Assembly: GCA_037974965.1 (NCBI GenBank)
Contig: JBBPFI010000015.1
Location: forward strand, 345,001 to 409,000
Direction: 5' to 3'
DNA: 64,000 nt
Source of the DNA: Dacryopinax spathularia
Taxonomy: Eukaryota > Basidiomycota > Dacrymycetes > Dacrymycetales > Dacrymycetaceae
The notes under the pieces were generated by a model. It saw nothing but the letters and a program-made list of their open reading frames with translations. It was not told where the DNA came from and made no database searches. The position numbers were made by a program, and so were the translations under genes. The first letter of the stretch is position 1. Each line of letters starts with the position of its first letter. Of the stretch, positions 8,360 through 28,358 are shown piece by piece.

Positions 8360-9635
8360 CCTTTCTCCGCTTGGTATACCGTCCAGACCAGACCCAGGCT
8401 CCTTCCGATCAACCTCACTCCGGTGAATAGATCGATACGATCTCCAACGAGCCGCCGGACTCCAGGAAAAGGAAAGGGAATGTAAAGGTAGGTACTTTGT
8501 GTAGGGGACGAGCAGTAGCGCCGGTGCTGATGAGTCGACCGGCTGATGCTGGCTGGCTGGCCGTTGAAAGTGCACGCGCGCCACTCCGACAAAGGCCGGC
8601 GCGAAGGACGGAAGGGCGCAAGGGCCGGAGGCGGAGCGCCCGTGCGTTTTCTCCGCGGAGGACGCCAGAAGCGCGCGGAATGTTGGGAAGCGGGCGGATG
8701 GGCGGCTATCTTTGTTGTTGTTTTCGGTTAGCCGGTTACAATGGGTTTTGTTGGAGGATTTTGATTCTGACCAATTGTGTACTACGTCAGTTACTTGATA
8801 GCTTGTTCTGAAGACCAATGCAATTTGTTTTCTCGGAATCCTGCTGCGTGAACCGGTCCATTTCTCATCTGCTTGGCGAGCCGTAGTTGCCGAGTAATCT
8901 TCGTCCAGTTCCTAGGAATTAAAAAGAAGTATTTGGTCCGGCAATAGCGTCAGTGAGCAGGAATAGATTGAGGTATGACAGAGAGTGAACCCAAGAAGTA
9001 TTCTATTGGGAAGGCTTCGCAAGATCCTCTGGAATAGTCCCACGAAGTATGTACTGACTGCAGAGCTCGGTGTGCTATCCAACCAGACCGTCATCTGACG
9101 GATTTATTGTAGGAGTTCTAGAACCTCTGCCCTCTGTAAGCCAGCGTATGCTTTCATATCCGGCCCACTCGGCCTCCGACCGGTCCTTTCACCTTTCCGA
9201 TCGGCACTGTGCGCTCTCCGACCACGGCGAAGAGCAAAGACCGGTAGGAAAGCTGCAGCAGATACCGCTGCCACGAAAGCGCCGGACCGAAGTGGCTGCC
9301 AATGTGTCTCTTGCATGCCCATTCGCTCTGACCGGAGCCTGGGATTCACCGGTCAAGGTCTTTCAACTGACTCGGCGCAAGGAAATGACCGGTGGTGCAA
9401 GAACACTTTGTGGTTACTCGCCATGCTCCCTGTCCAGGCCTGCCGCAGGTCCAGTGGAAAAGCAGAATATCAGCCTGCATTACAGTAGAAGTTGTGAGCT
9501 AACTATACGGAGAGTAGGAAGGCTTGAGCAAAGTTTGCAACGAACTGAAGAGATAGAGAAGACTGCCAGACCGCAAGCAGAATGCAGATACTTCAGTCGA
9601 CGAGGATTAACTGACCGGCTTCCTGACCGACAATA
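8360..9635. other. Intergenic flank of the large element, with a cluster of ACCGGT sites
   Basis: No gene recognised. Between about 8852 and 9625 the hexamer ACCGGT or the core GACCGG recurs about eight times (near 8852, 9178, 9239, 9330, 9349, 9387, 9612, 9625), dense for random sequence. It ends directly at the left terminus of the KDZ element. Confidence 0.4.
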
Positions 9636-9646
9636 GCGATTATCCC
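9636..9646 (+). repeat. Left terminal inverted repeat core of the KDZ element
   Basis: GCGATTATCCC; its exact reverse complement is at 28348-28358. Confidence 0.55.
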
Positions 9647-9694
9647 AGGACGTTGAAGATCGTAGGGTCGAGATAAACGCCGAGTCGTGAGAGA

Positions 9695-9723
9695 CGATAA
9701 TCGCTGGATTATCCGCGATTATC
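9695..9723. repeat. Left subterminal repeat cluster
   Basis: Three related units in 29 bp: CGATAATCG (9695-9703), GGATTATCC (9706-9714) and GCGATTATC (9715-9723). They are probable transposase-binding sites, by analogy with subterminal repeats of other large DNA transposons. Confidence 0.5.
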
Positions 9724-9925
9724 TGGCCTGCCGACGCGCATTCTCAAGGGGGCACGGGATCGAAAGCGACGTTTGTGTAAGACAGATTGACAACACGGAC
9801 TCCCATTAACTTCGTGCTACTACAGGAGACAGGAGAAATAGGCTACAATAAACGTTAGCCATATAGATCCAACGAAGAGCAACTTACACACCTTTGAACT
9901 ACCAGCTCGTTGAGCGCGCACAAGC

Positions 9926-11112
9926 TCAACTCCCGCAATAACGTCCCAGCGTGAGGAAGTTTATCACCTTCTTTACAGCCCCGATAAAGTCAAACGGCGC
10001 TGGATTATTGTTGATGTTGAGGACGTTCCCGTTGAACGAGTCCTGCGCTTGGACGGTTGGCTGAGGCTGCGGGGGATACGCCGTAGCTTGAGAGGAATGC
10101 CCGCCTATTTATTCGTCAGTAACGCGCCGGTCGTCCGAGAATGAGGAACGCACCTGACGTTCCTTGCCCAAGTCGAGTCAACGCGGCGAGACGTTCCGCT
10201 AGAAGATATGCGAGTTAGTACAAGAAAGAACGGTCTGTACAGAGGGGCGCACCGCGAGCCAACCTATGCTCCTCCCTCGCATCCTGATAGGAACGTTGCA
10301 CCGCGAGCCACCGCTGCCTGACCTCGACAATGGCCTCGTACGCCTCGCCCACTCTCACTTCCCCAGCGTCGAGCCGTCTCTGACCAGCCTCGCTGTGATC
10401 GTTCAGCTGGCGAATGAAGTTGACGTCCTCGATAGCGAAGGACAGATTCGTTTTCGCCTCTTCCAGATCGCGTTCAGCCGCCTGATATTCGGCATGCGCA
10501 CGCTTCAGAACGTTGCCGGCCTCCACTACTGCAGACTCGAGCGCGGCCATGTCGTTCAAGCCGCCGAGGGAAGAAGGGTGGACGTTGGCGTTCGCGGTCG
10601 CTGTGATGATCGACCCGATGCCGAGAGCAACGTTCAGGGCGGTAGGATTGCCGGTCATCTTCTGATGGACTCCCTGGGTAAGCCGGTCAGCAACGTTTAG
10701 CAGAAGATTGAGAGAAAGGACGTACTTGCGTCGTGGTTGTTCGTGGGCTAGATATCTCACGAGAGGATATGGACGGCGTGAGTAGGGTCCCGCGCCTGAT
10801 CGGAAGCAATTCGTCCCTTACTCACAGCCTCGGCTCGTCGTCTTTCCTTCGTGGCGCTTTGTACGCCTCACTCGACGAAGAGAGCTTCTTCGATCGACGC
10901 TTTCTGACTTGAGCCGTTCTGATATCTTTGCAGCAGGATCAGCATGCTGCGCACGGAGAAGAGAGAGCAACGTTACCGAGATCGACTATATCCTCCCAGC
11001 GAAGAGAGCAATAGGATCGGCCTAGTTTGGCCGCTTGCCAAGTTTGTTGGCGAGCCTTCTCGGGTCGATCATCGCTTGAACTTCCCACACACGGGTGACG
11101 TACAGATGCCAT
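9926..11112 (-). CDS. Element gene 1: coiled-coil protein with SUMO-interacting-like motif
   Basis: Exons (reverse order): 10977-11112, 10826-10925, 10726-10747, 10253-10673, 10154-10198, 9926-10104; all phases agree, giving about 300 residues. Near the N-terminus is EDIVDLD (40-46), a hydrophobic-core-plus-acid motif like a SIM, then a basic NLS-like stretch (VRKRRSKK). The middle is a long Ala/Glu-rich coiled coil (LKRAHAEYQAAERDLEEAK and onward). The C-terminus has a Gln/Pro-rich linker and a hydrophobic end (FDFIGAVKKVINFLTLG). No family recognised. The 5' end is uncertain: a further upstream exon starting at the ATG at 11461 is possible. Within the element it shares the SIM theme with genes 2 and 7. 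Confidence 0.6.
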
Positions 11113-12032
11113 GGGATTCTTTTCGATCAAAGTAAAGGAGCGGGGACGTTGATAAAGAAGCCCGTATCCATCGCTTGCTTCCGGCGCGGCGGAGGTTGAC
11201 TCATGGAGCATGAGAGCATGGCACGTCCATATTCGCAGCAAATGGTTCAAATTCGCTAGTAATGTAAACAAATCGCTGAAACCTAGAACATCTGGCTGGC
11301 GAGTCAGTTAATGCGCAGGACGGTGAACCATTGAATGAGTTACTCGCCTCCACGCCGATCGAACTCCCAGTGACACACGACCCGAGATAGCGGTCCCCCA
11401 TATCAAAGCTCCCCACTCTGCAGCTAATCCGCAGCCACTCTTTCGGCGTCAAGACGTTCATGCTTATAAGGGGTCGATGAACAACGCGCTTCGCATGATG
11501 AGGAGTAAGATCCGTTGAGCGGCGTCCGTGAGAGATTGTTAATGGGAAAGACAGAACATGTCAGAAGCCATCTTGCTGACGATAGCAACGTTCCTAGGAT
11601 AGAGTGCAATTGCGGTTTGCTCGACTGACGAGTTCTAAGAGAGCGAGGTGGACGTCGGAGGGAGAAGGGGGGTGGGAGGAAGTCGCAAACGTGGCTGGCA
11701 CCCGTTATCAACCAATGGGAAGAGTGGCTCAGCCGGTCGCACGCCATATGCTTCCGTCCGATCCACGTGTCCCACTCACTGCCATCAGCAAGAACGAATC
11801 TATTAGTGAGAACGAAGCTAGTCAAGTTAGTGATAGGGAACGCTGGGTAAATGGACATCGACAGCAAGGCAGCAAGAAGGTACTGGCGCGATGGTCATGA
11901 AGTAGTAGCGGGCTAAGATGAGACAGTGAAGTAAGCTGGGGTGAAAAATCAAGAGTCTGACCAGCCGCGAGTGTATGGATGAAGTATCGGCGGTTATGTT
12001 CTTTGCAGCCTTCGACGCGACCAGTATGGTGC

Positions 12033-13454
12033 TCACTGCGTTAAGTCGATCACTTCGACGTCACGATACAGACAAGCTTTCTTTCTTGCGAGCGCGACGT
12101 TGTCGCGGGTGGAACTGTGCTTGCGCTTCCGACTGACTCCCTCGCCTGCAGAAGTGCTGGGTTTTTGAGACGACGTCGGATAATCATCGTCCTCCTTGAG
12201 AGGGTTATAGATTGCTATAGAATCTACTGTCAGTAGGCATGGAGACGTCGGCAAATATGAAAGGACGGACCTTCCCTCTTCCTCGCTGACTGGCCCCCAT
12301 TCCCACCCGCAGCATGTCCATACGTTCGGCGGTTGCGTGCAGCTCGGACGTCTAGGAAGTTAAGTTAAGGAGGTGCAACGTCCCGACTGGTCGCTAGAGC
12401 TCACCCTCACGTGTGCCTTCGGTCGGCCAACCGACAAACGCGTCCCCAGGGAAAGCTGCTAACAGGGCTACCATCCTCTCATACTCCACAACGATCTCTG
12501 CGCCGAAAGCATCTCGGGCAATGCTTCCGCTTGCCCTCAGGAGGAGAACTGAGCCGCTTTCGAGGCGGAAATAGTCGTTTGACCCCACATCCATCCAGAT
12601 CCAGAGATCTCGCTGAAAATATTGTACTTCAGCCGCATCCAGGCCGAGGATAGAGAGCTCGCGCTTGACGTTCTCATGATCCAACGGCATGAAGTCGGTA
12701 TTGGGGGAGAACTTCCACTCAACTGGAGCGAGAAAGGCCTTGGGGTATGCACATAAGCGCAAGATAGCGAAACATAAGCGATACGCACCGAGATCCAGAA
12801 GAAGACTCTGGGGCGCGTCTGTGAGGGAAGACCTCCGCTAGCCGCCAGGTTCATATCACTCCCGATACCAGCTCGCATCTGCTTCGCCTCCCGTTTCAGG
12901 GTTGGGTTGACCTTAGGAGACACGACGTCGGAAAGCGGCGATAACGTGGAAGAGGGATGATAGCTTTCCGAGGACGCAGGCCGAGGGGAGGACGTTGCGA
13001 GGAAGCGAAATTTGTCATGACCAGGTCGGCTGCATCCTGGACAGCAATTAATGCATGCGAGGAACGGGCAATGACGATTGCCGATCTTGAGACAGGCGGG
13101 ATTGGAGCAGTGGATTGAGAACGCAGGAGTTGCCGGAAACAGAACAGACAGGTTGTCGACGTTGTGCGCCGACGTCGGTTGGAGTGGAGGCGCAGAGGCC
13201 GCACGCCTCCAGGGCACATCGGCTCTCCAGCTTGCCCAGTGGGATACACCACCGATCTCTCCATTGCACTGAACGCTAAGATGTCAGATGCAAGCAATGC
13301 AAGCGGGTTGAGCATTGCTTACCGCTTGAAAGGAGCGCCCCTTGTTGACCGCGGTCGATGCGACCATGATGCGCGGATGAATGCCGCTCCCGCAGTGGCG
13401 ACACACTTCATCAATGTGCGGAGCGCGGAACAGAACAGGAGGGACGGGTGGCAT
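12033..13454 (-). CDS. Element gene 2: GRF zinc finger / Cys-cluster protein ending in VIDLT SIM
   Basis: Exons: 13323-13454, 12789-13268, 12405-12738, 12271-12351, 12033-12226 (406 residues, phases consistent). Residues 18-55 form a GRF-type zinc finger (C18xxC21, NKGR at 37-40, C45, W55), a fold that binds single-stranded nucleic acid in topoisomerase 3a and APE2. A second cluster, CSNPACLKIGNRHCPFLACI followed by NCCPGC, would bind zinc. Downstream is a domain with an LGLDAAEV start, then an Arg/Lys-rich region, and the protein ends exactly in VEVIDLTQ, a canonical SUMO-interacting motif. I recognise this architecture as a highly expanded basidiomycete family that travels with KDZ elements. 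A TATAAAA lies about 100 nt upstream. Confidence 0.75.
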
Positions 13455-13549
13455 ATCGAGCAGAGTACGACGAGTGGCAACGTTGGGCGGCTGGAGTATG
13501 CGAGAGAGCAGATAGAGAGCGATGTATGCCTGTATTGCGGACTTGCCCC

Positions 13550-13556
13550 TTTTATA
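13550..13556 (-). promoter_or_regulatory. TATA box of element gene 2
   Basis: TATAAAA on the minus strand, about 96-102 nt upstream of the ATG at 13454. Confidence 0.5.
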
Positions 13557-13726
13557 TGCGTCGAATGCTCTTGGAACGTTGGCCTGCCGCAGACTTGGCT
13601 AATCTCGACTCGTCGTACGGTCCGTCGTGCGCCATACTCGGCCTGAGTGTGAGTGGATCGACCCATCGCAAGACCGTGCCTGATGGGAGAGTCGTCAATC
13701 TCGAACCACAGCGTTCCAGGCTGGGG

Positions 13727-13969
13727 CTATTTCGGAGACCGCTCACCTTTTTGCTTATCCTGCCGCAGGCCGACAGATCGACCCCAGGGCATGGTAACGT
13801 TCCGGTGCCTGTGAAACATGCATGTCGACCAAGCTTCAGTCGGTTCATGCCTCGTCGAAAGAGTCCACCCGGGTTCTCCTTGGACAACTAGTATCGAGTT
13901 GGTATCATAGCCAGTCCGAGGGAGTGACCTGTAGACCCTGCCGAAGAAGTGGGAGCGCGTCTCGGCCAT
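13727..13969 (-). CDS. Candidate small protein in the gap between gene 2 and the transposase
   Basis: An 80-codon frame from ATG 13969. Its central part (GYDTNSILVVQGEPGWTLST) has protein-like composition, and a GT donor lies near its end, so it may be the first exon of a short gene running to about 13600. No family is recognised and no complete gene model could be closed. The rest of 13455-14405 shows only low-complexity repeats such as ACGGCGACA (around 14020). Confidence 0.25.
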   Translation of the reverse strand: MAETRSHFFGRVYRSLPRTGYDTNSILVVQGEPGWTLSTRHEPTEAWSTCMFHRHRNVTMPWGRSVGLRQDKQKGERSPK

Positions 13970-14405
13970 AATTGATCCGCATCTTTGGAAGAGGGCTTCT
14001 TGATCAATAACGGGAACAACGGCGACAACGGCGACAACTCCAATAACTCGGCTCCCAAACGTTGGGGAGCTTCTCTTCGGACGAACCCGCCTGCGGTGTG
14101 GTGACCATCATAGCGGCGTCGGCGTTCTTTGCGCAGCGAAGCCCTAGGAACCAGAAGCCCCATCCATCTTCGTTAGAACGTTCCAAGGACGGCAATAACT
14201 GAGAAGACTTCTATTCCAAGACACTGGACCTCGGTAGATGAGCTACTCTTCTTCTTATTGAGAATCTGCAAGAACGACGACCATCCATGGAGGTACGGCG
14301 GAACACGCTCTGCCCAGCCCATCGCAGACTCGTTTCGACAATCACCGCCGGGCATTGCGCGAGCCAGCACTTACGATCAATTCTGAGTGTGCCGTATGTA
14401 AGGGG

Positions 14406-17400
14406 TTACGGGCTGTGCTCGTAATCCTTGCGTTCCTCCGAGAAACGTTGCGAAGGCGTCAAGCCAACTACCGAAGCTTCGGATGACCGTAGCGTCTTCT
14501 TGTGCGGACACGAAGACGTCAGAGCTGAGTTCAGGCGTTGAGGATCGGACCAATCATTGAGCCAGGCTTTGAGCGGTTCCTGCTCGTCCCCCTCCCCGCT
14601 GAGATATGCGACGCAAGTGTGGCTGAGCTGTTGGCAGGAGAGGAGTCAACAGGAAACAAGATTCGTATTGAGATAGAGCGAGAACAACGTCCGGGCCTGG
14701 TGAGCTAACAATGAAAATACCGTAGATTGCTTGACAGCGTAAGCCGCCCACCCCTGGTTGGTCTCTCGAGTGCGAGCCTCCTCGCCGACCGAGCTCCACG
14801 CCGCGGCGAAGAACTCATAGAATCGTACGACCCTCCGCATCTCAGCCTGGAGCACCTCGAGCTCCTCTTCTCCACGTTGTAAAGCAGCGAACGCACGCCA
14901 CCACGTCACAGCATCCACTGAGAAACGTTAGTCCTCCTCCATGCATGAAGGCGATGGCACGTGCCTGCTTCGCTCCATGAAGCCCGAACGTTGCTGTCTT
15001 GCAGCATTGAAGGAAGTCGAAGGCTGTAGAACCAGGGTTGCGCTGGACGTTTTCCCCGAGTCCCTACCACCTGGCCACTGAACGATCCGATCGATAAGTC
15101 CGTGTCGAGAAGAGGACGATACTTCTCATGATCCACAGGAAGACCGAGGGCTAGCATCGCGGTTCTCGCCCGGCGGTATGCTTCGGCATAGCGCGTCACT
15201 ACTTCTGCCTGCAGCTGCATAGTCCTACGGGCTCTCGTCTTCATGCCCGACACGGAGGCGTTGGTACGTGCTTTCTCGCGATAGACTTCTTGGAGCTTGA
15301 GTGCCTCTATGAGGTTGCCGATGGCTTCTTCGGACTGCGCCATTCTGAGAGTGAGCTCAATCGCGCCCAGGTGGTCCAGCTTCAGGGAACGTCGTGCTTG
15401 AAGGTCAAATGACGAGGGCAGTCCTAGAGGCTCCAGTTCAGGCTCGAGGCAATCGCCGAGTCCGGATGATGACAGCGAGCTGGGAGTCGATAGGAGAGGC
15501 ATCTCCCTCAGTTGGAGCACTCTCCAAGTCTCCAGTTGCGGCATGAGGTTGGCCCGGAGACAGCTGCGCTCGAGATGCACGTCCACCCCTTCTGTGCTTT
15601 CCGACACATCGTCCAGCTTCTTCTTGATGAGCAGCCTGGTAACGGTAAGTTCGTCCTCTTTATTCCCGCGAAACATCTCACTGATGTTCTTGAAGCGTAA
15701 TCCCTAGCTGTATGAACGATACAGAGCTCACTCTGTCTACACTGTCGGACAGAGCTTCCATCATCTGCATGGCGACGTGCTCTTCGTCCCGCATACGATC
15801 GGCGATGTGCTGCTGGCTAGGCACTGTCAAAGACAGCTTCAGTTTAGGCGCAAGCGGAACGAGGCGAAGTGGCTTACTCGACGTCTCTGGGTATCGGTAG
15901 ACACTCCGAAACGTTCCGTCCGCACGCTCCGTATACTGTGCATCCGAATGCCAACGCTTGATACGTTCCTGTCCAAACGTCGAGGTCAGAGAATCGAAAT
16001 ACGCCTTTGACTGCTCGACGAAGGTCTTCCCCAAATTGACTCTGCGACAGAGATAGAGAGCTGTTGCATTCGTCAACGAGAATTTTTGGCAGTGAGAGAA
16101 GAATCTCCATGCTCACCAACGTCTCGCTGCTTCTTCCAGTTCCAATCAAGGAAATGAGACTCTATGCAATCCTTTCGGTGCCCTGGATTCATCTCCTTGG
16201 TACTACCTCCGAGCTGGTTATGCTCAGCCCACGTCCGCTCTACTCCCTCGCCGTCAACACGACCCGCTCCCCTTTTCCAGGACAGAGAGAATGAGTATCG
16301 GCACTTCTCTCGGTGGGCATATTCATGCATCTTCGGAACGACGAACGTAATGCGCTCCCAAAGCGAGACGAGGTGCGGAAATCGAGAGCTCATGCGCTCC
16401 TTCCACCGAGGAGACCACATGCAAGCGAGATCGTACGAAAGAAAGACGGAGGGTAGCGGCTCCGCTCCCGCTATCGCGCCCGCAAACGCGTAGTCGACGT
16501 TGGAGAAGCTACACGATAGACTCAGTTTCTGTTATGCCCGTACTTCACCTGAACCAAGGACGTACCGTTCCCCGACTTGGAGATCCACTGTACCGGCGGG
16601 CCGGTATAGATTATGTCGCAAACAGCTCCACGAGTACACTCCTGAAGAGCGACAACCTAGATCACCCTGGAAAAGCATGGACGTCTTGAAGCCGCTGCAA
16701 GTCTGTGGCTGCGGAAGAGCGTTAAGGTTGTCTCTCAATCATAGTTAGATGCTTACCAGCTTAAAGTCCTCATGTGTCAGAATGTATTCTTCAAAATGAC
16801 GTTGGTCTGGGAAGAAGCCATTTCCATTATTGAGTGGGAGATCGTCAGGATCGATCGTCTTCTTCTTGGCTGACAGGCTGAAGTTCCCATCTCCTCCAAG
16901 ATACAGGGCGAGAAGATGTCTGACGATTCGTCAGTGAGATATCAAACAGGTGAACGCGATCTCGTCCGTACGGCTTGGCAGGATCGGCACTTCGAAGCTC
17001 CTCTAACGTTACGTTGAGCTCGGGTTGCGGGCAGGCCGGGCAAAGCGGACTCCGTATACGGTTTCCTGCGTACGAAGGAAGGAACCTAGAGAGTCCATGT
17101 GCTTCTCCAGTTCGTCTGCAGTTCTCGAGCTCCATCCAAAGGCGGCTGACGCGGAGGAGCTCGCGATACCGATCATTCGCAGATGCCGGCGTGATATCGC
17201 TTGTCTGTCTGACAAGTTTTGCATAGTAATCGTAGGCCGACTTTTTCGAGCATAGAGTGTGAAGATGGAAGTCCCTCAACACAGCGAAAGTAAATGCTGT
17301 CTTCGGAGTATCGAAAGTGACGGGGAACAACTCCGCTTTCAAGAGCTGAGTATAACGTTCTGAGGCAGGGGCGCAATGACAGAAGGAGAGAGCAACGTTG

Positions 17401-18017
17401 TGGATGCCGTTTACATGCACAACGACGAATGATGACCTCTGAGACGCCGCAGAAGGGCAGACCAATCCAGAGTGGCCGAGGTAGACGACCAGTCCGAGCT
17501 TCTCCAGCGAATTTCGGCGAAAGAAGTCTCCATTCCAAGAGTCAACCCAATGAAAGGGATTGCACCTATGCGCATCTACCTGACACGCAGCGCAGACCTC
17601 TGGGGCTTGAAAGCATTCCCTGCAACGTGTCGGCGAGCCGGACGGGCTGTCGCAACGAGCGCAGGGAGATGAGCTCGCCCGCCCATAATGCCGCAAGCAT
17701 TCCTCCAGAAACGTTGCGCGTCGAGCTAGGAACCTCCTCGTATAATCAGAAGCGGCCTAGAATGGAGTTGGTAAGTGAAATATACGCCCATGTCCGCTCA
17801 GTCAACACACCTGCTTGCGAGCCCCATCCTTCGCTGCTTGTGCCGGAGAAGACGTCCTTCCCGCAATCAGTGGCGGTATGGGCCGGCGAAAGTCCTCTAT
17901 GACATGGCTCCCGACCGTGGTAGGAGTTAACTTCGTCTTAACAGCTCGATCGTGAACTCCTGCTTGGGTCGGAACGTCGTCGATTATGCTGATCTGAGGA
18001 TGCTTGCGCCGTCGCAT
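14406..18017 (-). CDS. Element gene 3: KDZ transposase with CxC2 cysteine cluster (intact)
   Basis: Nine exons: 17811-18017, 16972-17756, 16757-16919, 16566-16702, 16117-16508, 15682-16060, 14965-15635, 14721-14917, 14406-14627; 1050 codons with every phase consistent. The CxC2 cluster is at about 101-138 (C101, C104, C114, C117, C124, C127, H132), followed by the HWVDSWNGDFF and SLEKLGLVVYLGHSG signatures, then AFTFAVLRDFHLHTLCSKKS and PLCPACPQPE. The catalytic region shows SYDLAC (455-460), a His-rich helix, and RVDGEGVERTW (514-524) followed by GGSTKEMNPGHR, all diagnostic of Kyakuja-Dileera-Zisupton transposases. A C-terminal helical region has the usual EMRRVVRFYEFF pattern. Intron 7 (14918-14964) starts GCACGT, a GC-AG intron after CAG. 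It shares an upstream spacer with gene 4, transcribed the other way. Confidence 0.93.
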
Positions 18018-18596
18018 GGCAGCCCTTGCAACGTTACTGACGAAAACTTCGGGCGCTGGGCGCGAGCCACGTAGGTCGGTCTGAAGAGTTTGACCACTGG
18101 AAGCAGCGTATAGTCGAGGCGAAACTCATCACAACACGATTCGGAGGGAGCCAGCGACGATGCATGATAAGCGGGGGTCGAGGTGAGCCAAGTTGTTGGG
18201 GTAAGCCGGCGGAGCTCCCTGGACCCGATCAGCTTCTTCAAAGCCGCCCAGGTGCGGAACGAGCTCCCCTGAATCGTTTCATCTCACTCCATCATGTACT
18301 CCCTCAACGTTCACATCCGACGACTTGGAAACCTTCTGCAAGAGATAAGCCGCCGTTTTCTCCGTTCCTGAAGTCCGGCAGATGCACAGCACGTGGATCT
18401 AGCCCTGGAACGTGAACCCGTTTGATACCATCTTACTCTTCTGGCAGTCACCATTCCGCTCGTTCTGCTCGACAACCATGCCTCCAAAGAGGGAACGGGC
18501 GGATGAGAACCTCTTCCTCGAGCGCGCTGTAGGTGAAGACGAATCTCGACCCAGACGTCTCGAGATTGCTCTGTCCAACTCTTCGCCGACAAACCC
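18018..18596. promoter_or_regulatory. Bidirectional promoter between transposase and element gene 4
   Basis: 579 bp between the divergent starts. An in-frame ATG at 18478 could start gene 4, but the intron needed to join it would be only 26 nt, so it is unresolved. Confidence 0.4.
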
Positions 18597-20747
18597 ATGG
18601 TCAACTTCAGAGCAGAGCACCGCGCTTGGCTGTTAGAGCGCCTTACGTCTTTTGCCGAGCACGTTCTCAAGAGAGAAGGCAAGCAGTATGCGCATCGTGT
18701 CGCCTCAGCATTTCGAGCACGCTTCCCGGAATACACACCGAAGCGAGAATCACAAGATGTCGCCGACGTGCGTGAGCTTTTTTGCTTGTGTACGTCTGGA
18801 AGTACTAACGTTGTTGCCTATAGCAAGTTTATGTCTTTTTGAAGAACAATCACAGTCATAGCGGTGATCCGGTGCTAAAACTACCGAGGCCTCGAGACAA
18901 GACATGCCCCGTCACCAATCGCGCGAGAGAGCTCATGGCGGCGGATATGCCGGACTTCAAAGAAGAACTCGTGGAGTATGCTCTTCAGGTCAACAAAAGC
19001 GCTTTCCAAGCGCGTCCCGAGTTTCTCAAGCTGCAGTGGGAAACGATCCTCACGCCCGAGCGGCAAGCCGCCTATCGAGAGCAAGTGGAAACTGAGCGGG
19101 CGGAGGCGGCGGAGGAGGGCGCTGCGCTTGCAGGTACACGTTGGTAAGCACTGGCTCTCTTCCGATAATAGGCAGCTCACAGCTCACTGATCGCAGGTCT
19201 GCCCAACAAGTGTACAGTACCATTACGGCATTTCACAAGTCCATGTCCACGCGCACAGGCTGGATCTTCCTCACCTTAGCTGGGGGACTCGACCAGAGTG
19301 GAGTCCGTGCGATGACCCAGTGAGAGCCTTTGACTCTCCGGCCGCCGCTACTAATCGACGATGATTCTATCTCAGAGTCGATTCAGGCAAGACCGCAGCC
19401 GGTCTCACGTTCTCCGAATTCCATCCTCGTTACGAAAGTGACGTTCAGCAGCTGTGGAAGGAATTTGTGAAAGAAGCCGGTATGTGAGTAACAGCGCAGG
19501 TCAGACTACAGCTTACCCGCAACGATAGTCCCCTGCGACGTACGAGACGCCTCCACAAGAGTACTGCCCACTCTGCAACGTTATGAAAACAATTGCCCCG
19601 TTCTTCCTCCACTAGATCACTCCTGGAATCGGATGGAAATCGCGGTCATGCTACAGACGTTTTTCCGTCATCTGCATGGTAGGAACCGTCCCACGGAGTG
19701 ACGCGATCTGATGTCCATCCCAGCTCATGAGCGAGACGCGTATCCATTAGTGTGGATATCAGCTACCATTCGACCTGGGAGGCTACCTACCGACGTGGTC
19801 TTCGGAGATCCAGAGTCGATGTCCTTCGTTGATCTTCTCAAAACGTACGAGCACGTCCACAAGCAGCAATCCGAACATCAGGAATCATACACCTTCTTCG
19901 CCGACCCGGCAGCTAGTTCAGCGAGCATACTGTATGGGAGTCCTACCGGATCGCTCCGCCGTGAGTCACGTTTGCCGAGTACGCCTTCTCATACTTCTGC
20001 ACAATCGGTAAGTCGCTTTGCTCGACCTTTGACATAACTGAAGGGATTCATAGGGCAATCGCCTTGGGCGTCGGTCCCGCCAAGATACCCTATCACCATT
20101 ACGGGGAAACAGCCTCCTCAACGAGCCTCTGACGTCCCCACCACCGTCGGACTCCGAGGACGATTACTCTCAAGAAGATAGGCGAAGCTGTAACCTGGGT
20201 AAGCCTCTCTGTCCCTTTCGACGACGAGTCCTCAGGTCGACTTCTGTAGATTCGCCACTGTCGGCTAGACGAGCTGCCAGACAACCTGCCGGCTCGCTTG
20301 TTGCCTCCCCGCAGCCTCGGAGAGCTGAACTTGAAGCCGAACGAGTGCCGAAGCGCAAGGCGTCCGTCCGTGGTCGCGGTGATCCCACGAGCAAGCGGTC
20401 GAGAAAAGTCAGGTAGGTGAATGGACGTTCATGAGCAAGTGCGAGTGCCTATCGGGTTCGAGTAGCCCGGCGAAGTCTCTCAATAGTACTATATACAAGA
20501 GGAAGTAAGCTTCGTTCAATATGACTAAGCTGGACGCTGACGTTCATGCACAGGTCCCCGTACCGACTGGCTCCCCCTTGTGTGCCGCGAAGATGAACAG
20601 CGCGGTGCTCAAGCACCAGGCGACGATGCATGCCAGGAGGACGTCGAATACTTCAATTCTACTCTGTCTAGTTTACAAAGAATGGAAATGCGTTCCCGTA
20701 CAGATGGATTACCGATGGAAAATGAGACTATGCTTAAGGTCGCTTAA
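18597..20747 (+). CDS. Element gene 4: KDZ-associated basidiomycete protein family
   Basis: Exons: 18597-18767, 18824-19143, 19197-19319, 19376-19479, 19529-19678, 19724-20007, 20054-20198, 20250-20412, then a terminal exon about 20556-20747. The first eight join in phase. The N-terminal part (AEHRAWLLERL, then an HMG-like helical stretch around NRARELMAADMPDF and RPEFLKLQWETILTPERQAA) and the segment RTGWIFLTLAGGLDQSG resemble a family widely repeated in mushroom genomes beside KDZ transposases. The C-terminal third is basic (KRKASVRGRG). The last junction is uncertain: the terminal reading frame (EDVEYFNSTLSSLQRMEM) needs a 5-nt microexon or an unusual splice. It ends 17 bp from the convergent gene 5, which supports the stop at 20747. 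Start also uncertain. Confidence 0.6.
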
Positions 20748-20764
20748 TCTAGACAGCCTTACTC

Positions 20765-22303
20765 TCAACGTTCTGCCTCTCTCGAGCGACTCTCTTGGTC
20801 ATTTCCCCTTTCGCTGAGCTCAGAAGGCGCAGTTCGAGGGTCGTCGCGCTGATGCACTGGTCGAGGTCGACGTCTGCCCCTGCGCTCAATATCGGGATCA
20901 ATAGCTTCTTTCTCCTCCCTTGCTTCTGCCGCGGCTACGATCGCCCTCCATGAAAGAGCTGGCATCTCAACGGGGACGGCTAAGTCGACTGGTTCGGAGA
21001 AGTCGACGTTGAAAAGCGCTGCAATCTCTGAGACGTGGAAGAGGACACCATTAGTGCACTGCACAAGAGGTGGGTCAAAGTGCGAGCCTTCTTCTGTTCG
21101 CTATTAAGCTGCGAAGGTAAGTCTCTGATCGAATCGCTTACCGTCCGTCCAGGGTCTGAACCCGAGGGTACCGTCCCACATCCCAACATTGAAGGCCCAT
21201 TGTGACTCAGTGGGCCATCTGTATGGCTGCGAGTCGAATCCAGGCAGAGGGATGTACTGTGTCACGCCGCAGAGCACCTTCCTTTGAGATCGCAACACTC
21301 TGGGAAGCTGTCGCCACAAGCAGTGGCCTCCGAGGTGTGTATCTAAGGATGAGATTAGCATGGAACGTCGCCGTACGGGCAAAGCTTCGTACCGAGCCAG
21401 TGAGGGAAGTCGTTTCGCAATAAGACGTTAGATGCCTTCAGAGGAATGTAGGCAGCTGGCCTTTCTGGCCAAAGAGCGCGAGCAGGAGAGTGAGGATTAA
21501 TGGGTATGCGTTTGGCGACCGAGAAGTGATAACTACCGGTGCCAGGCAGCAAGACAGTGGAACCGTCTGCTCTGGTAAGAAACCTTGGGTTTTGTACATA
21601 GTCCAGCTCCCAAGAGGAGCAGGCAGATCCCCCCCGTACGCGTATCTGGTCGCCGAGACGTGATTCTTCGTGCCACCTCTCTGAATGAGCCCACCGCGGA
21701 GAATCGGGAGATGAATGAAGATCGGCTAGCGAATGCAGGATATCGCGTATGCTGTTGGGCATATCTTCCGTCTGGAGAAATCGGCTCGTCCCCGTAACGT
21801 ACAGAATTTCGATCGCCTCCCTCAGAAACAAGGCTGAAACGGAGTGAGCTGGGAAGAATAAGGGAGACCAAGTACTCACCGGCCTGCCTCCCGTCCACTG
21901 TGACCAGGAAGTTGCGGACGACGTCCTCAATATAGCTGCTCACTTCCCTTCGACGCAGTGTGTTAGCGTACGTCATTCCATACGAGACAGGACCTGGTCG
22001 ATTGTGCCAAACTTCGGAGCCTGGTACACCGTTGATCGCACGCCCCGACGTTCTGTCACGAGGTCGTTGTTCACAAGGTTGAGCAAGACGAAAGGAAGTA
22101 ACTGGCTCCGAGACGATAGAGCCTTCCCTATTCGCACAGAACGTGCCAGGTTGCTTCCAAGATGTAGGCGGAGGTTGTTGGCGGTACTGCACGGACGACG
22201 AGCCTGGGAGCAGGAGGCGCGCTGGCAGCATAGGCGGAAAGGGTGCTGAACCGCTCGTAGTGACTCCACCTGACGTCCCTCGGTGTGCAGTGTCGGAGTT
22301 CAT
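20765..22303 (-). CDS. Element gene 5: orphan protein
   Basis: Exons: 21880-22303, 21393-21833, 21142-21342, 20765-21093 (464 residues, all phases consistent). The frame also continues upstream to an ATG at 22567; I chose the ATG at 22303 because the sequence after it (Ser/Pro-rich, then SYIEDVVRNFLVTVDGRQA) is the more protein-like. Landmarks are IPINPHSPARALWPERPAAY, WAFNVGMWDGTLGFRPWTD and a C-terminal coiled-coil-like basic tail. No HxD...H pattern of TET/JBP dioxygenases is visible, although such enzymes accompany some KDZ elements. I do not recognise the family. Confidence 0.55.
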
Positions 22304-22697
22304 TTTGCGAAGGTCGAGTACGGGCTCCCGTCGATGATAGCAAGCTGGGTAAGGTAAGGGCTCGTTGACTGGAGGAGACGAGAGAGACGACTTGTCCTGA
22401 ATACGTGCACAACTAGACCGCAGTCGCCGTATCAGGGTCCGCTCGACTTGGACGTGCGGCATCTGGCCGGCCCATGTAATCGGCGTGCAAACAGTCACAG
22501 AGAGTGACGAGCAGTTGTTGCAGACCGAGTAGGCTAGCCTCGCCTTTCTTCGTGACTCGAAAGGCATGGATTGGGGAACGCTGGCTAATGATAACTATTC
22601 ATACCGCTCCAATGGCGGACGTTGTCGAAAAGATGTAGATATGTATCTAGCGGATTGGACACCATCACGCACAACCCACTCGGCCCTACGTAACTGC

Positions 22698-23453
22698 TCA
22701 GATGAGAATCTCCGATGGCACCTTTCCTTCGTCCTCCCAGTTGTCGCGGAGATAGTGGACGGCACTACCAACCGAATCAACTGCCGCAGACGAACCCGAT
22801 GAACCACGGTCGGTAGATCCTTGAGAAACCCCGTCGAAGCAGGAAGGAGGCGCGACGTTGCCAGCATCCTATGGTATAAAACACATGTCAATTCCTATCC
22901 CGCTGACTCTCGACGTTGTTATTGACTCACCGAGGGGGTCTCAGTTATGAGGGATCGATGAGCGATGTAATGCAAAACCTCTGAGAGGCCCTTCTCAGCA
23001 TCCTCAGCCACGTCCAGGGGTACGACATCATGGGAAAGGGGGCCCGCGAGCCACAGAGAGTGAATAGATTGGATGGTGACCAGTCTAGCTGTCTGTGAGC
23101 AATACCATCGGGCGAACAGAATATACGTCACACCTCAGTCCGCATACTTTCCGTCGTACGTGCTCTGCGATCTCGATGACGGAGTGCACATCTATTTTCC
23201 CCATAGATACGAGGGCACTGAGACGTCCACCAAGCATTGCTGGTATGCTATTGAATCCGTCGGTTATCTCGACGCTGTGCGGATCAGTCAGCTTTGCATC
23301 GAGCCAGGGCGAAGAGAGAACATACAGATACTTCTTCCTTCCCTTTTCATCCACATCTGCTTCTTCAATGGTCAGGACTTGAACATATCCACTCTTGATG
23401 GGCTGGTCGTCCAGAAGAGCGATACAAGTTCCCTTGCGCAGAGTTACGAACAT
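22698..23453 (-). CDS. Element gene 6: small RPA70N-like OB-fold protein
   Basis: Exons: 23326-23453, 23148-23274, 22931-23092, 22698-22868 (195 residues). The start MFVTLRKGTCIALLDD, then GYVQVLTIEE, then KKYLVEITDGFNSIPAMLGG and a helix ending SMGKIDVHSVIEIAEHVRRK, follow the N-terminal OB fold of RPA70 (L.kG...v/PVLQVL.I, Y.l.lSDG...AML...l..lV..g.l). The remaining 80 residues are acidic and unassigned. RPA70N recruits checkpoint and repair factors in the host. A stand-alone copy on a transposon could bind or decoy those partners, which is inference. It is one of two RPA-related genes in the element. Confidence 0.6.
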
Positions 23454-24390
23454 CGCGGTAGTGAAGAGAGTGACGCGGCGAAGTGGCGCCTCAGGAGTCG
23501 CCCGTTTGCTGCCGAATCACATTCCCCCTCTTCGGAGCCATACTATAGCCACTCCCGATTCCCCGGAAACCTGCGTCCCTTGCTATGACATCATCGGGCG
23601 ATCTAATAAAGTGGGAGACTATAAAAGAGGTAACTCCTTTAAGTCTAGAGAGAGCGAGGTGAGAGGCTGAGTAGGCGCTACACTGGCCGCATGAATAATA
23701 ATAAGCAATTCTCCCACATTTACAGGCAACTGGTACAGCATAGTCGGAGAAGCGGGTACGGCAAATGTGATAGCGAAGAATAACATATCTCAGCACTACC
23801 GTTGTCATTCACAGCCTTTCTCGTCGAGTACGTCTTTGGACGTTGCATGCAAGGTTTGCCCCCCCAAAACGTTGGGAAACCGAGCGAACTCTCTGAGTGA
23901 TACTCTGATAGCAGTGTATTTTCCTGTCTGCGAGAAGATCTTTGGAACCTTGAGCTCAGACCTTGCTTGACCCCTCCCAACATGGACGGAGTCGAGACGA
24001 AAGGTCGAAGAGCTCTTCGACTCGTTCAGAGCTCTTCGAGTCGTTCGTCCCTTGAAGGGGTGGCCAGAACAACGTCAGAGCAACCGACCTTGAAGTCTGG
24101 ATCCAGGCCCACCTGCGAATGAGCTTGCCGAGCCTCACTAGTCCGCACCTCAGGCTTCCTTCCGTCGTTTCAGCTCCTCGCTTGGCTAAGAGCGACGGTG
24201 GCTGGAGACGTAGTTCATCATGAGAAACTTTGAACGCACTAGACACACTTGACAGAGAACGTTGCTCTAATTTGACCCATCTCTAGCTACTGTAGCTCAG
24301 AAAACTGTACCTTATCCTCTGCAAGGCCGACAACGAATGAAATGAAGCACAACAATTAGAGCGCACGAGAACGCTCGATGACACACTATC
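23454..24390. other. Element intergenic region without recognised gene
   Basis: No supported gene. It contains a duplicated 18-bp unit GAGCTCTTCGA(C/G)TCGTTC at 24009-24026 and 24028-24045, overlapping the perfect palindrome CGAAGAGCTCTTCG (24006-24019). Confidence 0.5.
24009..24045 (+). repeat. Two-copy 18-bp direct repeat with internal palindrome
   Basis: Two copies separated by 1 bp and differing at one position. The unit is itself nearly dyad-symmetric, as expected for a protein-binding site. Confidence 0.6.
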
Positions 24391-25026
24391 CTACTGCGGT
24401 GAAGCTCCCTCCGCTTCTCTCTTCAGCTCTTTGATCTCCGCGCGCAGCCTATCGTTCTCCTTGAGTGCGTCGGCCCAATGGCGCTTGATCATGATGAGCT
24501 GGAACGTCTTGTCGGAGCACTCTTGCTCGTATGCCTGCGCCTCGCTCTTCCAGTACTCGATGTCGTGCTCCTCTTCAACGTTCCATTTGAAGTCCACAGG
24601 CTCGACTTTAATGATGATCTGATACATACTGGTCAGTTCGCAAGCAACGTTGAATGAGTAGGTGTCCACGCACGTTGTCATCATCTTCGGTCAGGTCGAC
24701 AACCTCGCGCTTCTGCCTCTTCGGCACATCTCCATCTCGCCCAGAACCCTGCGCAGGGCGCTTCTGCGAGCCTACAAACTGAGACTGCGAACGAGACTGT
24801 TGGGAGGGTTGACTAGGCGTAAGAAGAGGCGTAGACATCTGCGACAGCGAGGCCGAAGGCGCTGACGCTCGAACGCCCGATGTATGCGGTGCGACGGCGT
24901 CGCTTGGCACATGTTGGTGAAAGTCGAGGTGGGCTAAGAGACGATGAGAGGACGTTCTGAGTAAGAGAGGGACGTACCATCGTTTCCCGATCCTTGCGAG
25001 GCGAGTGCTTCATGCTGAGGAACCAT
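24391..25026 (-). CDS. Element gene 7: SIM and coiled-coil protein
   Basis: Exons: 24978-25026, 24674-24933, 24391-24618 (178 residues). A Ser/Gln/Pro-rich N-terminal half runs into a bipartite basic NLS (KRPAQG...PKRQKR), directly followed by EVVDLTEDDD (93-102), a strong SUMO-interacting motif with the acidic tail. The C-terminal half is a helix/coiled coil (HDIEYWKSEAQAYEQE, DRLRAEIKELKREAE). The second acceptor used is the TATCAG at 24624-24619, because the nearer CAG gives an early stop. The SIM and NLS combination resembles the C-terminus of gene 2. It is divergent from gene 8 over a 212-bp spacer. Confidence 0.7.
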
Positions 25027-25238
25027 GCTGAGGAATGATGAGACGGGAGGAAGGGGTGATCGATCGTCTTTACTAGGACTCACGCAGGAGGCGCGGAGCA
25101 GGAGGAACATGCCAGTGCACGTCCAGATTGCCTCCGCAGATTGCCTCCGCTTTATAGGGGACTCCACCGACACTCCAGACGTACGCCCTTCTTTTCTCTC
25201 TTACCACCACGACGTCTTGACATCCTCAACGTTTCAAG
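25027..25238. promoter_or_regulatory. Bidirectional promoter of element genes 7 and 8
   Basis: 212 bp between divergent start codons. Contains a short duplication (ATTGCCTCCGC twice, about 25128-25150). Confidence 0.45.
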
Positions 25239-28085
25239 ATGACTAGTTCTACCTTGTTGAAGAAAGATGCTTGCGCATCGCTTGTCAACTCATACGATAC
25301 TGAGTTTCGTGGCTTGATCATGCAAGTACTGGAGATCTATCCAGGAACGCTGGACGGCCATAACGTCGGCTCCCGTGACGAGTATGGGTGAGACGTCTAT
25401 CTGCGGAGTCTCTGAACGACGGTACTAATCATCCTCATTCAGTATCATCCTCTCAGATGGAAAACACGCTATGCTGGTGATGTTTCACCCCTCTCTCAAC
25501 GCATACATAAAGAAGAACGACATCAGGCGGGGATCCTTCTTCCGGATCGATGCTGTAAAGAGGAAGGTTCTGGGAGGTTATCGGTACGTTGATAAGTGTA
25601 TATGCGCGCTGATCTATGCTGACAAGTCTACAGCATCATCACAATACTGAAGGGGGCGCCTGTGGGTAGACCGGCCGACATTATCGGTAACCCAGTTGAA
25701 GTGAGCCTCCGCGTCGAGGCTCTCGTTTCCGACGAACGCCGCGACGTGGACGCTGGTCGCGAGAAAGCTACTTTCCGTGCTCGGTCTGGCGTACCTGCTC
25801 CTGCTCGCCCCTCCCACACGGATCCAGTCGTTGGACCTGTTCAGCTGTCGCCGACTCATGACTCAGCGGCCTCCAACAAGCATGACTTGCAGCTTACCGA
25901 GAAAGCGTCGTCGCAAAATCCCTCGGATAGCCCTGTGCCAGCTCCAGCCGCTTCCGCGCAGACCGTCGCGTCTGCCACTACTGAAGATAAGGCTAAAGAT
26001 AAGAAAGACAAGAGCAAGAAGAAAGTCGAAAGCAAAGCCAAAGGCGAGAGTCAGACCAAACGTGATGGCAAGACGCCTAAACGTGCCTACGCAGGCTTGC
26101 CCAAGGTGAATGGATCCGCGGGCCCCTCACGACCGGTCTACACTTCGAGGACCCGGTCGGAAAGCCATGGCACGTCTGTAACTACTAAAGCTATCGCCGC
26201 CGGCAACAACAATGCAGATTCTGCTTACTCGAAAGTCATCCTTTCTAGCGAGGTGCAGTCCGACGAGCCCAACCTCGTCATGCTTAGCGACCTCGATCCC
26301 AAGAAGCCCATGAACTGGTTTACGTACGTCCGTGTATGCGAAATTCATGGGCCGCATGCCTACGCAAACGAGAAGGGGTCTGGCAGAGTACTGTCTTTGA
26401 AGGTCAAAGACTGCGCAGAGGTGAGCAAGATTGAGCCGTTCCGCCCATCTGCCTTCTCATTGACGCACACGAAGAATTATATGCGCGCCGTGCTCTTCGA
26501 CGATGCTGGGATCGAGGGGATGCTAGCCCAGGCCAAGGTCGGCTCCGTAAGTCCTGGTTGTGCGCTTCTTGTTGAAGACGCTAAGTTGTTTTCCAGATTA
26601 TCAGAATCAGCAACGTCAAGGTCGCGCCTGTTGCACCTCGCTATAAAAGTCCGGACATCTTGCCGTTCCAGCTGAATATAACCGGCGGTTCCGATCTGGA
26701 CTTCGTCCTGGAGGTACGGCCGGACGTTCTTCCCTATCCCGCACCACATTGCTGACTCCCTACCAGGCCCATGGTATCTCTCCTGTCGCTATTCCCTTGA
26801 CCAACATTCAGCTACTGCGCGGTATGGAAGCCAAGTCCAAGGTGAACGTCCTGGGCATCATCTTGAACGTCGGCAAATTGGCTTCGATGTCCGCTGAACA
26901 GCGTGTCGCTTCCGACGTCGACGTCAATAATGACCCCGACTCCCCGGAGAATGGGCCTGGGGAGCGCAAGCGTTTGGAGCTTCAGGTTGTCGATCAAACT
27001 ATGCATGTCGTCCGCGTGGCTTTGTGGAAGGACAAGGCTGTTACGTTTGGAGGCAAAGTCGGACAAGCTGTGCTCTTCAAGAAGATCGTCGTCGCCTCGC
27101 ACGGCGGAGTCAGTCTCAATGCCTACGATTTTACTGAGATCATCCTGAAGCCCGACGTTGAGGGCGCCAAGGAGATTGTCGAATGGTGCGTAGATAAACA
27201 GGGAGTGGTATTCTTTCTCACTTGCATGCAGGTACGAGAATCTTCCTGAACACCGAGAATTCAAGCACATCTCGTCTGGCTACAGCGGCTCTGGTGGTCT
27301 GACCGGCGACGTTGAACCGCGCTCGTCTACCCTTTCCATTGACGAAGTCGTGCACTCTGAGCTCGGACACGGCACCAGGGTCGATACTTTCCACATCGAA
27401 GGGTACTTCACCGGCATCAATCCTGATACAATTTACGAAGCCTGCCGCCACCCCGACTGCAACAAGGACTTGAAGAAAAACAATGGCGTCTGCCCGATCC
27501 CGGGTCACGAGAATCCCCCAGAGGGAGATGACGGCGAGAAACGCTGGTGGTATGCTCAACGCTCAACTTCCTGGCTTGATGCTAACGCACGCCTTCCAGC
27601 TACAAGCTCACTCTCTTTATGGGCAGTAAGAAGGAGGAGATGGTAACCTTCCTGGCTTTCTCACCTGCTGCCGACGAGATCCTGGGGGAAGCACCCGAAG
27701 AGTTGATCAAAACCAAAGTGAGTTGGCAGATAGGGTTAAGAACCCAGCTGAACGTCTCTCAGGTGTATTGTTACAGTGCTTACGAGCAAGTCCTGAAGGA
27801 TCTCATCCAGAAACGTCCTGTCTGGAAGCTCACTGTTCAAGCTCGCACGCGTCGCTGGCAGGTAAGGTCAGGTTAGTGGAGTTAGCGCGCTTCGTCTGAC
27901 GTGCTGTTTAGAATAAGAACGGCTGGTGGTGCAGCGACCTGCAATACGTCATCGTTGCTGCCCATCGTAAGGAGGAAGATGAAGATGTTGGGAAGGACGA
28001 TGTCAACGGCGACGAAGAGGATGATTCCGGGGAGGGCGAGGAGAAAGAGAGCGATGTCGTCGCTGACGAGGCTGTTGATGAATAG
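25239..28085 (+). CDS. Element gene 8: divergent RPA1-like large subunit
   Basis: Exons: 25239-25387, 25443-25583, 25634-26546, 26597-26713, 26767-27185, 27232-27549, 27600-27717, 27763-27861, 27912-28085 (815 residues, all phases consistent). The RPA70N fold (MQVLEIYPG ... IILSDGKHAMLVM) is followed by a long Lys-rich linker (DKKDKSKKKVESKAKG), DBD-A from about 313 (LSDLDPKKPMNWFTYVRVCE ... RAVLFDDAG), DBD-B (KSKVNVLGIILNVG ... VVDQTMHVVRVALWKDKA) and a DBD-C-like domain with a zinc-ribbon start C651xxxxC656 ... CPIPGH. An acidic tail ends the protein. Eukaryotic RPA1 is about 600-620 residues; here the linker and tail are enlarged and the OB cores are divergent. By family it binds single-stranded DNA. 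It ends about 270 bp from the right terminus. Confidence 0.75.
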
Positions 28086-28290
28086 GAATGGATGGGATCG
28101 GTTTTTTCCTTGCTGCTCTGTACTATAGCTTACGGTTGCTGGTCTCAGATGTCATTGTAGAAGCCCTTGATGGAAAGATTGTGTTATGGCGGTAACGTCC
28201 GTATTGTACAGTAATGAAGTCCGTCATGAAACTTGCAGCCAGAGACGGCTGACAATAACGTTAACTATACAAATAATCTCTGTTTTATCT

Positions 28291-28321
28291 GGGATTATCC
28301 TATGAGACATGCTGATTATCC
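28291..28321. repeat. Right subterminal repeat cluster
   Basis: GGGATTATCC (28291-28300) and GATTATCC (28314-28321), the same unit as at the left end. A further variant, GGGATGATCG, is at 28381-28390, just outside the proposed end. Confidence 0.5.
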
Positions 28322-28347
28322 TGACTTGGCCCGCTTCTGATCCGCCG

Positions 28348-28358
28348 GGGATAATCGC
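28348..28358 (-). repeat. Right terminal inverted repeat core of the KDZ element
   Basis: GGGATAATCGC, the exact reverse complement of 9636-9646. Confidence 0.55.

Follow-up and report, generated by a model that had tools for sequence, protein, structure and literature searches.

A probable Kyakuja-like KDZ transposon of 18.8 kb with an RPA70-like gene and an element-wide sequence word in Dacryopinax spathularia

Do the genes of a long interval in the genome of the fungus Dacryopinax spathularia belong to one mobile element, and if so, where does that element end? The interval lies in a 64-kb stretch of contig JBBPFI010000015.1 (positions 345,001 to 409,000; hereafter the window, with positions counted from its first letter), in which an earlier note had read positions 9636 to 28358 as a giant KDZ DNA transposon. 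We conclude that the locus is very probably a single, and probably autonomous, DNA transposon of the KDZ superfamily, 18,825 bp long, with Kyakuja-like ends and largely open genes. The note's central claim, one mobile unit that holds a KDZ transposase and several other genes, is supported by CA..TG termini with a 7-bp duplication flush with them, by subterminal repeats, and by a sequence word whose excess ceases at the ends. The boundaries that we assign are as follows.

9585..28409: whole element, 18,825 bp, 5'-CA..TG-3' termini (basis: ends, RACGTY delimiter, and TCAGTCGAC sites)
9578..9584: target-site duplication, left copy, CAGAATG, 7 bp, flush with the 14/17 terminal inverted repeat
28410..28416: target-site duplication, right copy, CAGAATG, 7 bp
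9585..9601, plus strand: terminal inverted repeat, left, CAGATACTTCAGTCGAC, 14 of 17 positions equal to the right end
28393..28409, minus strand: terminal inverted repeat, right, CAGCCACCTCAGTCGAC (minus-strand reading), 17 nt

All flush 7-bp repeat pairs between two end regions of 400 nt were compared: the outer pair has by far the best inverted match, 14/17, and the runner-up reaches 8/17. The maximum for a 17-nt inverted match in random region pairs was 12/17 (1,451 pairs, 49 of the 1,500 drawn having been removed for lying close to the left end). The sequence TCAGTCGAC occurs exactly twice in the window, at 9593 (+) and 28393 (-), that is, at both ends. The full 17-nt terminal pattern has no internal copy within the element, and its shorter 8-nt core CAGTCGAC has four further sites in the window, one of them inside the element (20984). 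Given the gap between the best and the next best pair, we dropped the GCGATTATCCC repeats that the earlier note took for the termini: these repeats are subterminal, and the outer pair, 51 nt farther out on each side (9585 and 28409), probably represents the true ends. An 8-bp duplication, GCAGAATG (9577-9584 and 28409-28416), is possible, but its termini are asymmetric, with a best flush-8-bp inverted match of 6/17.

Just inside the ends lie two clusters of short repeats.

9636..9724: left subterminal cluster, GCGATTATC(C), four GATTATC sites, the first 51 nt from the end
28291..28358: right subterminal cluster, three GATTATC sites, the outermost 51 nt from the end

The repeats and clusters of the earlier note are thus present, with exact copies of GCGATTATCC at 9636 (+) and 28349 (-) and GATTATC clustered on both sides. 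The window has 13 GATTATC sites, seven of them no more than 140 nt from an element end; the mean number expected for the whole 64 kb is 5.35. A single exact GCGATTATCC also occurs outside the element, at 59353-59362 on the minus strand, probably by chance.

The ends enclose a transposase gene of the expected kind.

14406..18017, minus strand: KDZ transposase gene, about nine exons and about 1054 aa, CxC2 and KDZ domains; exon structure 3' of the KDZ domain provisional

Its product matches the Pfam KDZ profile over residues 336-556 (profile positions 3-217 of 217; 1.8e-46; 159 bits against a cut-off of 26.6) and the CxC2 profile over residues 153-256 (2.5e-36). The motifs GGDGNF, YDLACMW, and GEGVERTW presumably hold the KDZ catalytic residues (D, D, and E), a placement that we assume rather than compute. 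A full-length KDZ domain, a CxC cluster, and a duplication in the 7-8-bp range (CAGAATG), all expected of a KDZ transposon, are found together, and this is the only transposase among the eight gene models of the element scanned with Pfam. The intact nine-exon gene claimed earlier holds as a stop-free reading of 1054 aa, but not in every exon: the nine-exon model leaves one intron after the KDZ domain, at about 14918-14961, without a GT donor, which makes the exon structure of the C-terminal part provisional, and the gene finder's alternative around this point has more exons. Taking this gene together with the RPA70-like gene described below (gene F), 15 of 16 introns have a GT donor, 15 of 16 measure 43-57 nt, and many have a branch point resembling CTRAC; the window thus has a eukaryotic look.

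A second, independent line of evidence for one unit is a dispersed palindromic word.

9650..28258: zone through which RACGTY palindromes are scattered (101 sites in 9585-28409)

Inside the element we count 101 RACGTY sites, against 44 in the remaining 45 kb of the window (5.4 versus 0.97 per kb, a 5.51-fold difference), and the word ranks first among the 162 palindromes tested. The over-represented 5-mers of the interval first reported point the same way, with AACGT and ACGTC far above every other. When the segment densest in AACGT was sought blind, the result was 9650-28258 with a gain of 61.1; in 100 permutations, which were uniform and did not keep base composition, the gain never exceeded 10.9. 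A blind search with ACGT returned the same segment (gain 43.2). In three other, mutually overlapping 18.8-kb segments, the best 5-mer gains were 3.6, 5.9, and 5.2 versus 59.9 in the element, and the best 6-mer gains 6.2, 5.0, and 8.2 versus 23.6. The word is present in all 14 element sub-segments counted (3.96-15.6 per kb) and is sharply bounded in sequence as well as in space. Specifically, of the seven one-step neighbour classes, three are below 1 (RATGTY 0.85, RCCGTY 0.86, RGCGTY 0.92) and four are mildly raised (RAGGTY 1.21, RTCGTY 1.35, RAAGTY 1.61, RACGTR 1.85). The spacing of the sites is irregular and near random (coefficient of variation 0.92), and no longer consensus surrounds them. 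Whatever its function, such an element-wide word is a simple way to delimit elements of this kind from one sequence.

The enrichment runs through every class of DNA in the element. AACGT occurs 6.3 times per kb in exons, 8.6 in introns, and 7.4 in intergenic DNA (on gene models that are partly provisional), against 1.4 outside; the introns of the two firmer genes, transposase and F, hold six copies in 846 nt. First-order simulation predicts 11.5 intergenic copies in the element (standard deviation 3.7) and 49 are present, whereas outside the element 62 are present and 55.7 predicted (standard deviation 7.9). The transposase coding sequence has 18 RACGTY sites versus 6.2 expected, a count that none of 1000 synonymous shuffles reaches, and the sites fall 5, 5, and 8 in the three codon frames. 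Several trivial sources of the word were considered. An effect of intron branch points is not the sole cause, as exons and intergenic DNA are enriched too. Decay of CpG, or a process like repeat-induced point mutation (RIP), was not seen: the ratio of observed to expected CpG is 1.07 inside the element and 0.93 outside, with no depletion. Long repeats as the source were likewise set aside, the window having no repeats of at least 30 bp (14-nt seeds). Branch-point-like sequence does run into ACG (CTAACG, CTGACG) in 7 of the 16 transposase and F introns, and the intronic excess partly overlaps branch sites.

Among the accessory genes, one can be named and a second weakly resembles its beginning.

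25239..28085, plus strand: gene F, divergent RPA70 (RPA1) homologue, nine exons, 815 aa (Pfam and PDB search)
20749..23453, minus strand: gene D, RPA70N-like N-terminus, remainder without a named family; possibly two genes; model provisional

Two Pfam matches in gene F are above cut-off, Rep-A_N (7.3e-7, residues 9-103) and REPA_OB_2 (2.8e-7, residues 506-562, 30.9 bits). A match to Rep_fac-A_C (0.0032, residues 636-754) is below cut-off, yet lies at the expected place, and the order of the three domains is that of RPA70; the first DNA-binding OB fold has no Pfam match. The best solved chains are 4gnx_C (1.1e-13, a 'putative uncharacterized protein') and 8rk2_A (6.7e-13, RPA 70 kDa subunit), which we take to be the RPA of a smut fungus and human RPA70, respectively. 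Gene F is about equally distant from both, which suggests that this complete RPA70 homologue is a divergent one. At its N-terminus, gene D has a Rep-A_N match below cut-off (3.9e-4), and D weakly resembles the beginning of F (27 of 118 positions identical; E 0.041 in one comparison); a PDB search with D returned nothing up to E 10. A gap of 1,220 nt free of RACGTY, starting at 25392, lies mostly within gene F.

The other four accessory genes are less distinctive.

9926..10658, minus strand: gene G, coiled-coil-like by eye, one 148-nt intron; model provisional
12033..13454, minus strand: gene A, Cys-rich N-terminal half, C-terminal VEVIDLTQ, no Pfam family; model provisional
18478..20747, plus strand: gene C, divergent from the transposase gene, no Pfam family; model provisional
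24391..25110, minus strand: gene E, REVVDLTEDDD motif, coiled-coil-like tail, divergent from F; 5' part provisional

None of genes A, C, E, and G has a Pfam family above cut-off. Translating the whole window in six frames gives three sites of the pattern [VI][VI]DLT, and genes A and E account for two of them; we take this VIDLT/VVDLT motif to be like a SUMO-interacting motif. The earlier note counted at least seven genes besides the transposase. Six were found (G, A, C, D, E, and F), or seven if D is in fact two genes. The divergent pairs that it described are there, with the transposase gene and C 460 bp apart and E and F 128 bp apart.

Several points weigh against one unit with firm ends and firm contents. 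When the 600-nt end regions are aligned alone they score 51, and the top scores of random window regions (about 300) are 47, 50, and 51; random regions thus match the end alignment, and the weight of the end call lies with the flush duplication. The permutations behind the AACGT segment ignored composition, as stated above, and a blind search with the strict word AACGTT gave a segment of 9851-25228 (gain 23.0), which ends before gene F. The coding sequence of F holds nine RACGTY sites versus 5.7 expected (71 of 1000 shuffles), with eight of the nine in one frame, so F alone gives no clear DNA-level signal. Because the AACGTT segment stops before F and the count in F is near codon expectation, this gene may be a later capture into the element. 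In addition, no relatives were found in viral (two scans) or prokaryote (one scan) collections, the gene models other than F (G, A, C, D, and E) are provisional, and the function of every accessory gene is a prediction.

The two observations on F would also suit a smaller KDZ element beside host genes, in which F and possibly also D and E, on the right, would belong to the host and the outer right end would have arisen by chance. This is very unlikely: the right subterminal cluster and the terminal repeat lie beyond F, the AACGT segment extends to 28258, and the divergence of F would be unexpected of a fungus's single housekeeping RPA70. Nesting of at least two transposons could explain a size 1.7-2 times that of the Cryptococcus KDZ elements and a gene F less word-biased than the transposase gene, but we find it highly improbable, as the 17-nt terminal pattern is absent from the interior (even its core stands there only once), a single transposase is present among the eight models, RACGTY is found in every sub-segment, and the window has none of the long repeats sought above. 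One transposon is therefore preferred; what its word means is a separate matter. It is quite possible, although short of probable, that the excess reflects the base-word habit of a foreign donor or former host genome rather than a functional signal, and the near-random spacing, the lack of a longer consensus, and the similar rise in exons, introns, and intergenic DNA are consistent with this. The sharpness of the one word relative to its neighbour classes and the ordinary CpG ratios argue against it, and so sharp a genome-wide habit would need a cause of its own. This explanation is at least as likely as the bolder one, which we consider doubtful: that RACGTY is an 'address code', selected even within codons, by which an element protein would recognise and organise all 18.8 kb as self (for pairing of the distant ends or for protection from self-insertion or silencing), while the element's own RPA70 would handle single-stranded DNA in a KDZ transposition that exposes far more of it than simple cut-and-paste.

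A mechanism for the proposed single transposon can be sketched. The CxC2/KDZ transposase would bind the GCGATTATCC subterminal repeats through its cysteine cluster and pair the 17-nt ends, and DDE cut-and-paste with 7-bp staggered cuts would leave the 7-bp duplication. The RPA70-like protein, perhaps with the product of gene D, could coat the single strands of the excision gap or of the ends, or replace host RPA there, and this handling might allow repair to restore a copy. The VIDLT/VVDLT proteins may connect the complex with factors of repair or silencing that are linked to SUMO. In the least certain step, a DNA-binding protein encoded by the element could use the RACGTY palindromes as its sites and so mark this long DNA or hold it together.

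How does the element relate to known systems? Kyakuja-1_LB and -2_LB of Agaricomycetes have 7-bp duplications and 5'-CA..TG-3' termini, and are reported to lack terminal inverted repeats and to carry a TET/JBP gene; duplications are 7 bp in Kyakuja and 8 bp in Dileera and Zisupton (PMC12730594), and both Kyakuja and Zisupton are present in Chlamydomonas (PMC8226300). The element resembles Kyakuja in its KDZ-type transposase, 7-bp duplication, and CA..TG termini; unlike Kyakuja-1_LB and -2_LB, it has a short imperfect inverted repeat (14/17) and RPA-like genes, and no TET/JBP family member was found among its eight scanned models. Because of the inverted repeat at its ends, we call it Kyakuja-like rather than Kyakuja. 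The mobile elements KDZ1-3 of Cryptococcus measure 9.2-11 kb; their inverted repeats span 139-241 bp, their duplications 4-8 bp, and their cysteine cluster is CxC1 (PMC12810828). KDZ elements of about 11 kb also lie in Cryptococcus MAT loci (PMC12510652). Like KDZ1-3, the present element is a large KDZ transposon with an intact transposase, but it is about 1.7-2 times larger (Cryptococcus being the sole size comparison) and has a 17-nt repeat and CxC2 instead of CxC1. A CxC2 cluster precedes all intact KDZ transposons in Pleurotus ostreatus (PMC7641404); the order CxC2 before KDZ is shared with the element, whereas no RPA-like partner gene is noted in the excerpt of that source.

Two further classes share single traits with it. 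Helitrons carry distant RPA homologues together with Rep/helicase, and probably move by a single-strand mechanism (PMC4683698). The element, too, is a transposon with a distant RPA homologue, but its transposase is of the KDZ (DDE) type rather than Rep/helicase. To our knowledge, Helitrons have neither a DDE transposase nor such duplications, and RPA genes in transposons have so far been known from Helitrons. Starships, described from Pezizomycotina with a tyrosine recombinase and sizes up to about 700 kb, also gather several genes in one fungal mobile element. The captain of a Starship is a tyrosine recombinase of the DUF3435 type, and no such captain was found among the eight scanned models.

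The unusual parts of the element are the RPA gene and the element-wide word. A term search of a review of giant eukaryotic transposons found neither KDZ nor Zisupton (PMC6431247). The earlier note's comparison with giant cargo transposons is overstated, as Cryptococcus already provides KDZ elements of 9.2-11 kb (PMC12810828), and the only extra gene that can be named, the RPA-like one, seems more likely to serve transposition itself than to benefit the host. Among the matches listed from the open-licence PMC literature (titles and abstract openings), none described a KDZ element with an RPA gene or a RACGTY word spread over a whole element, which leaves the note's view of the element as undescribed uncontradicted. 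KDZ transposons are widespread in fungi and their mechanism is little known; a complete RPA70 homologue of the element's own suggests that a large DDE transposon is limited by how well it handles single-stranded DNA. If functional, an element-wide, sequence-specific word that disregards coding frames would amount to a signal by which a eukaryotic transposon recognises itself.

Of 10 frames outside the element that were scanned with Pfam, six have families of ordinary kinds (a fungal transcription factor, a DEAD helicase, HSF, WD40 twice, and GCV_T, the last below cut-off) and four have none; no transposon domain was found in these 10 frames. Far to the left, in a window for which ARAGORN, at the settings used, reported no tRNA, positions 1086-1180 have by eye the look of a split tRNA gene.

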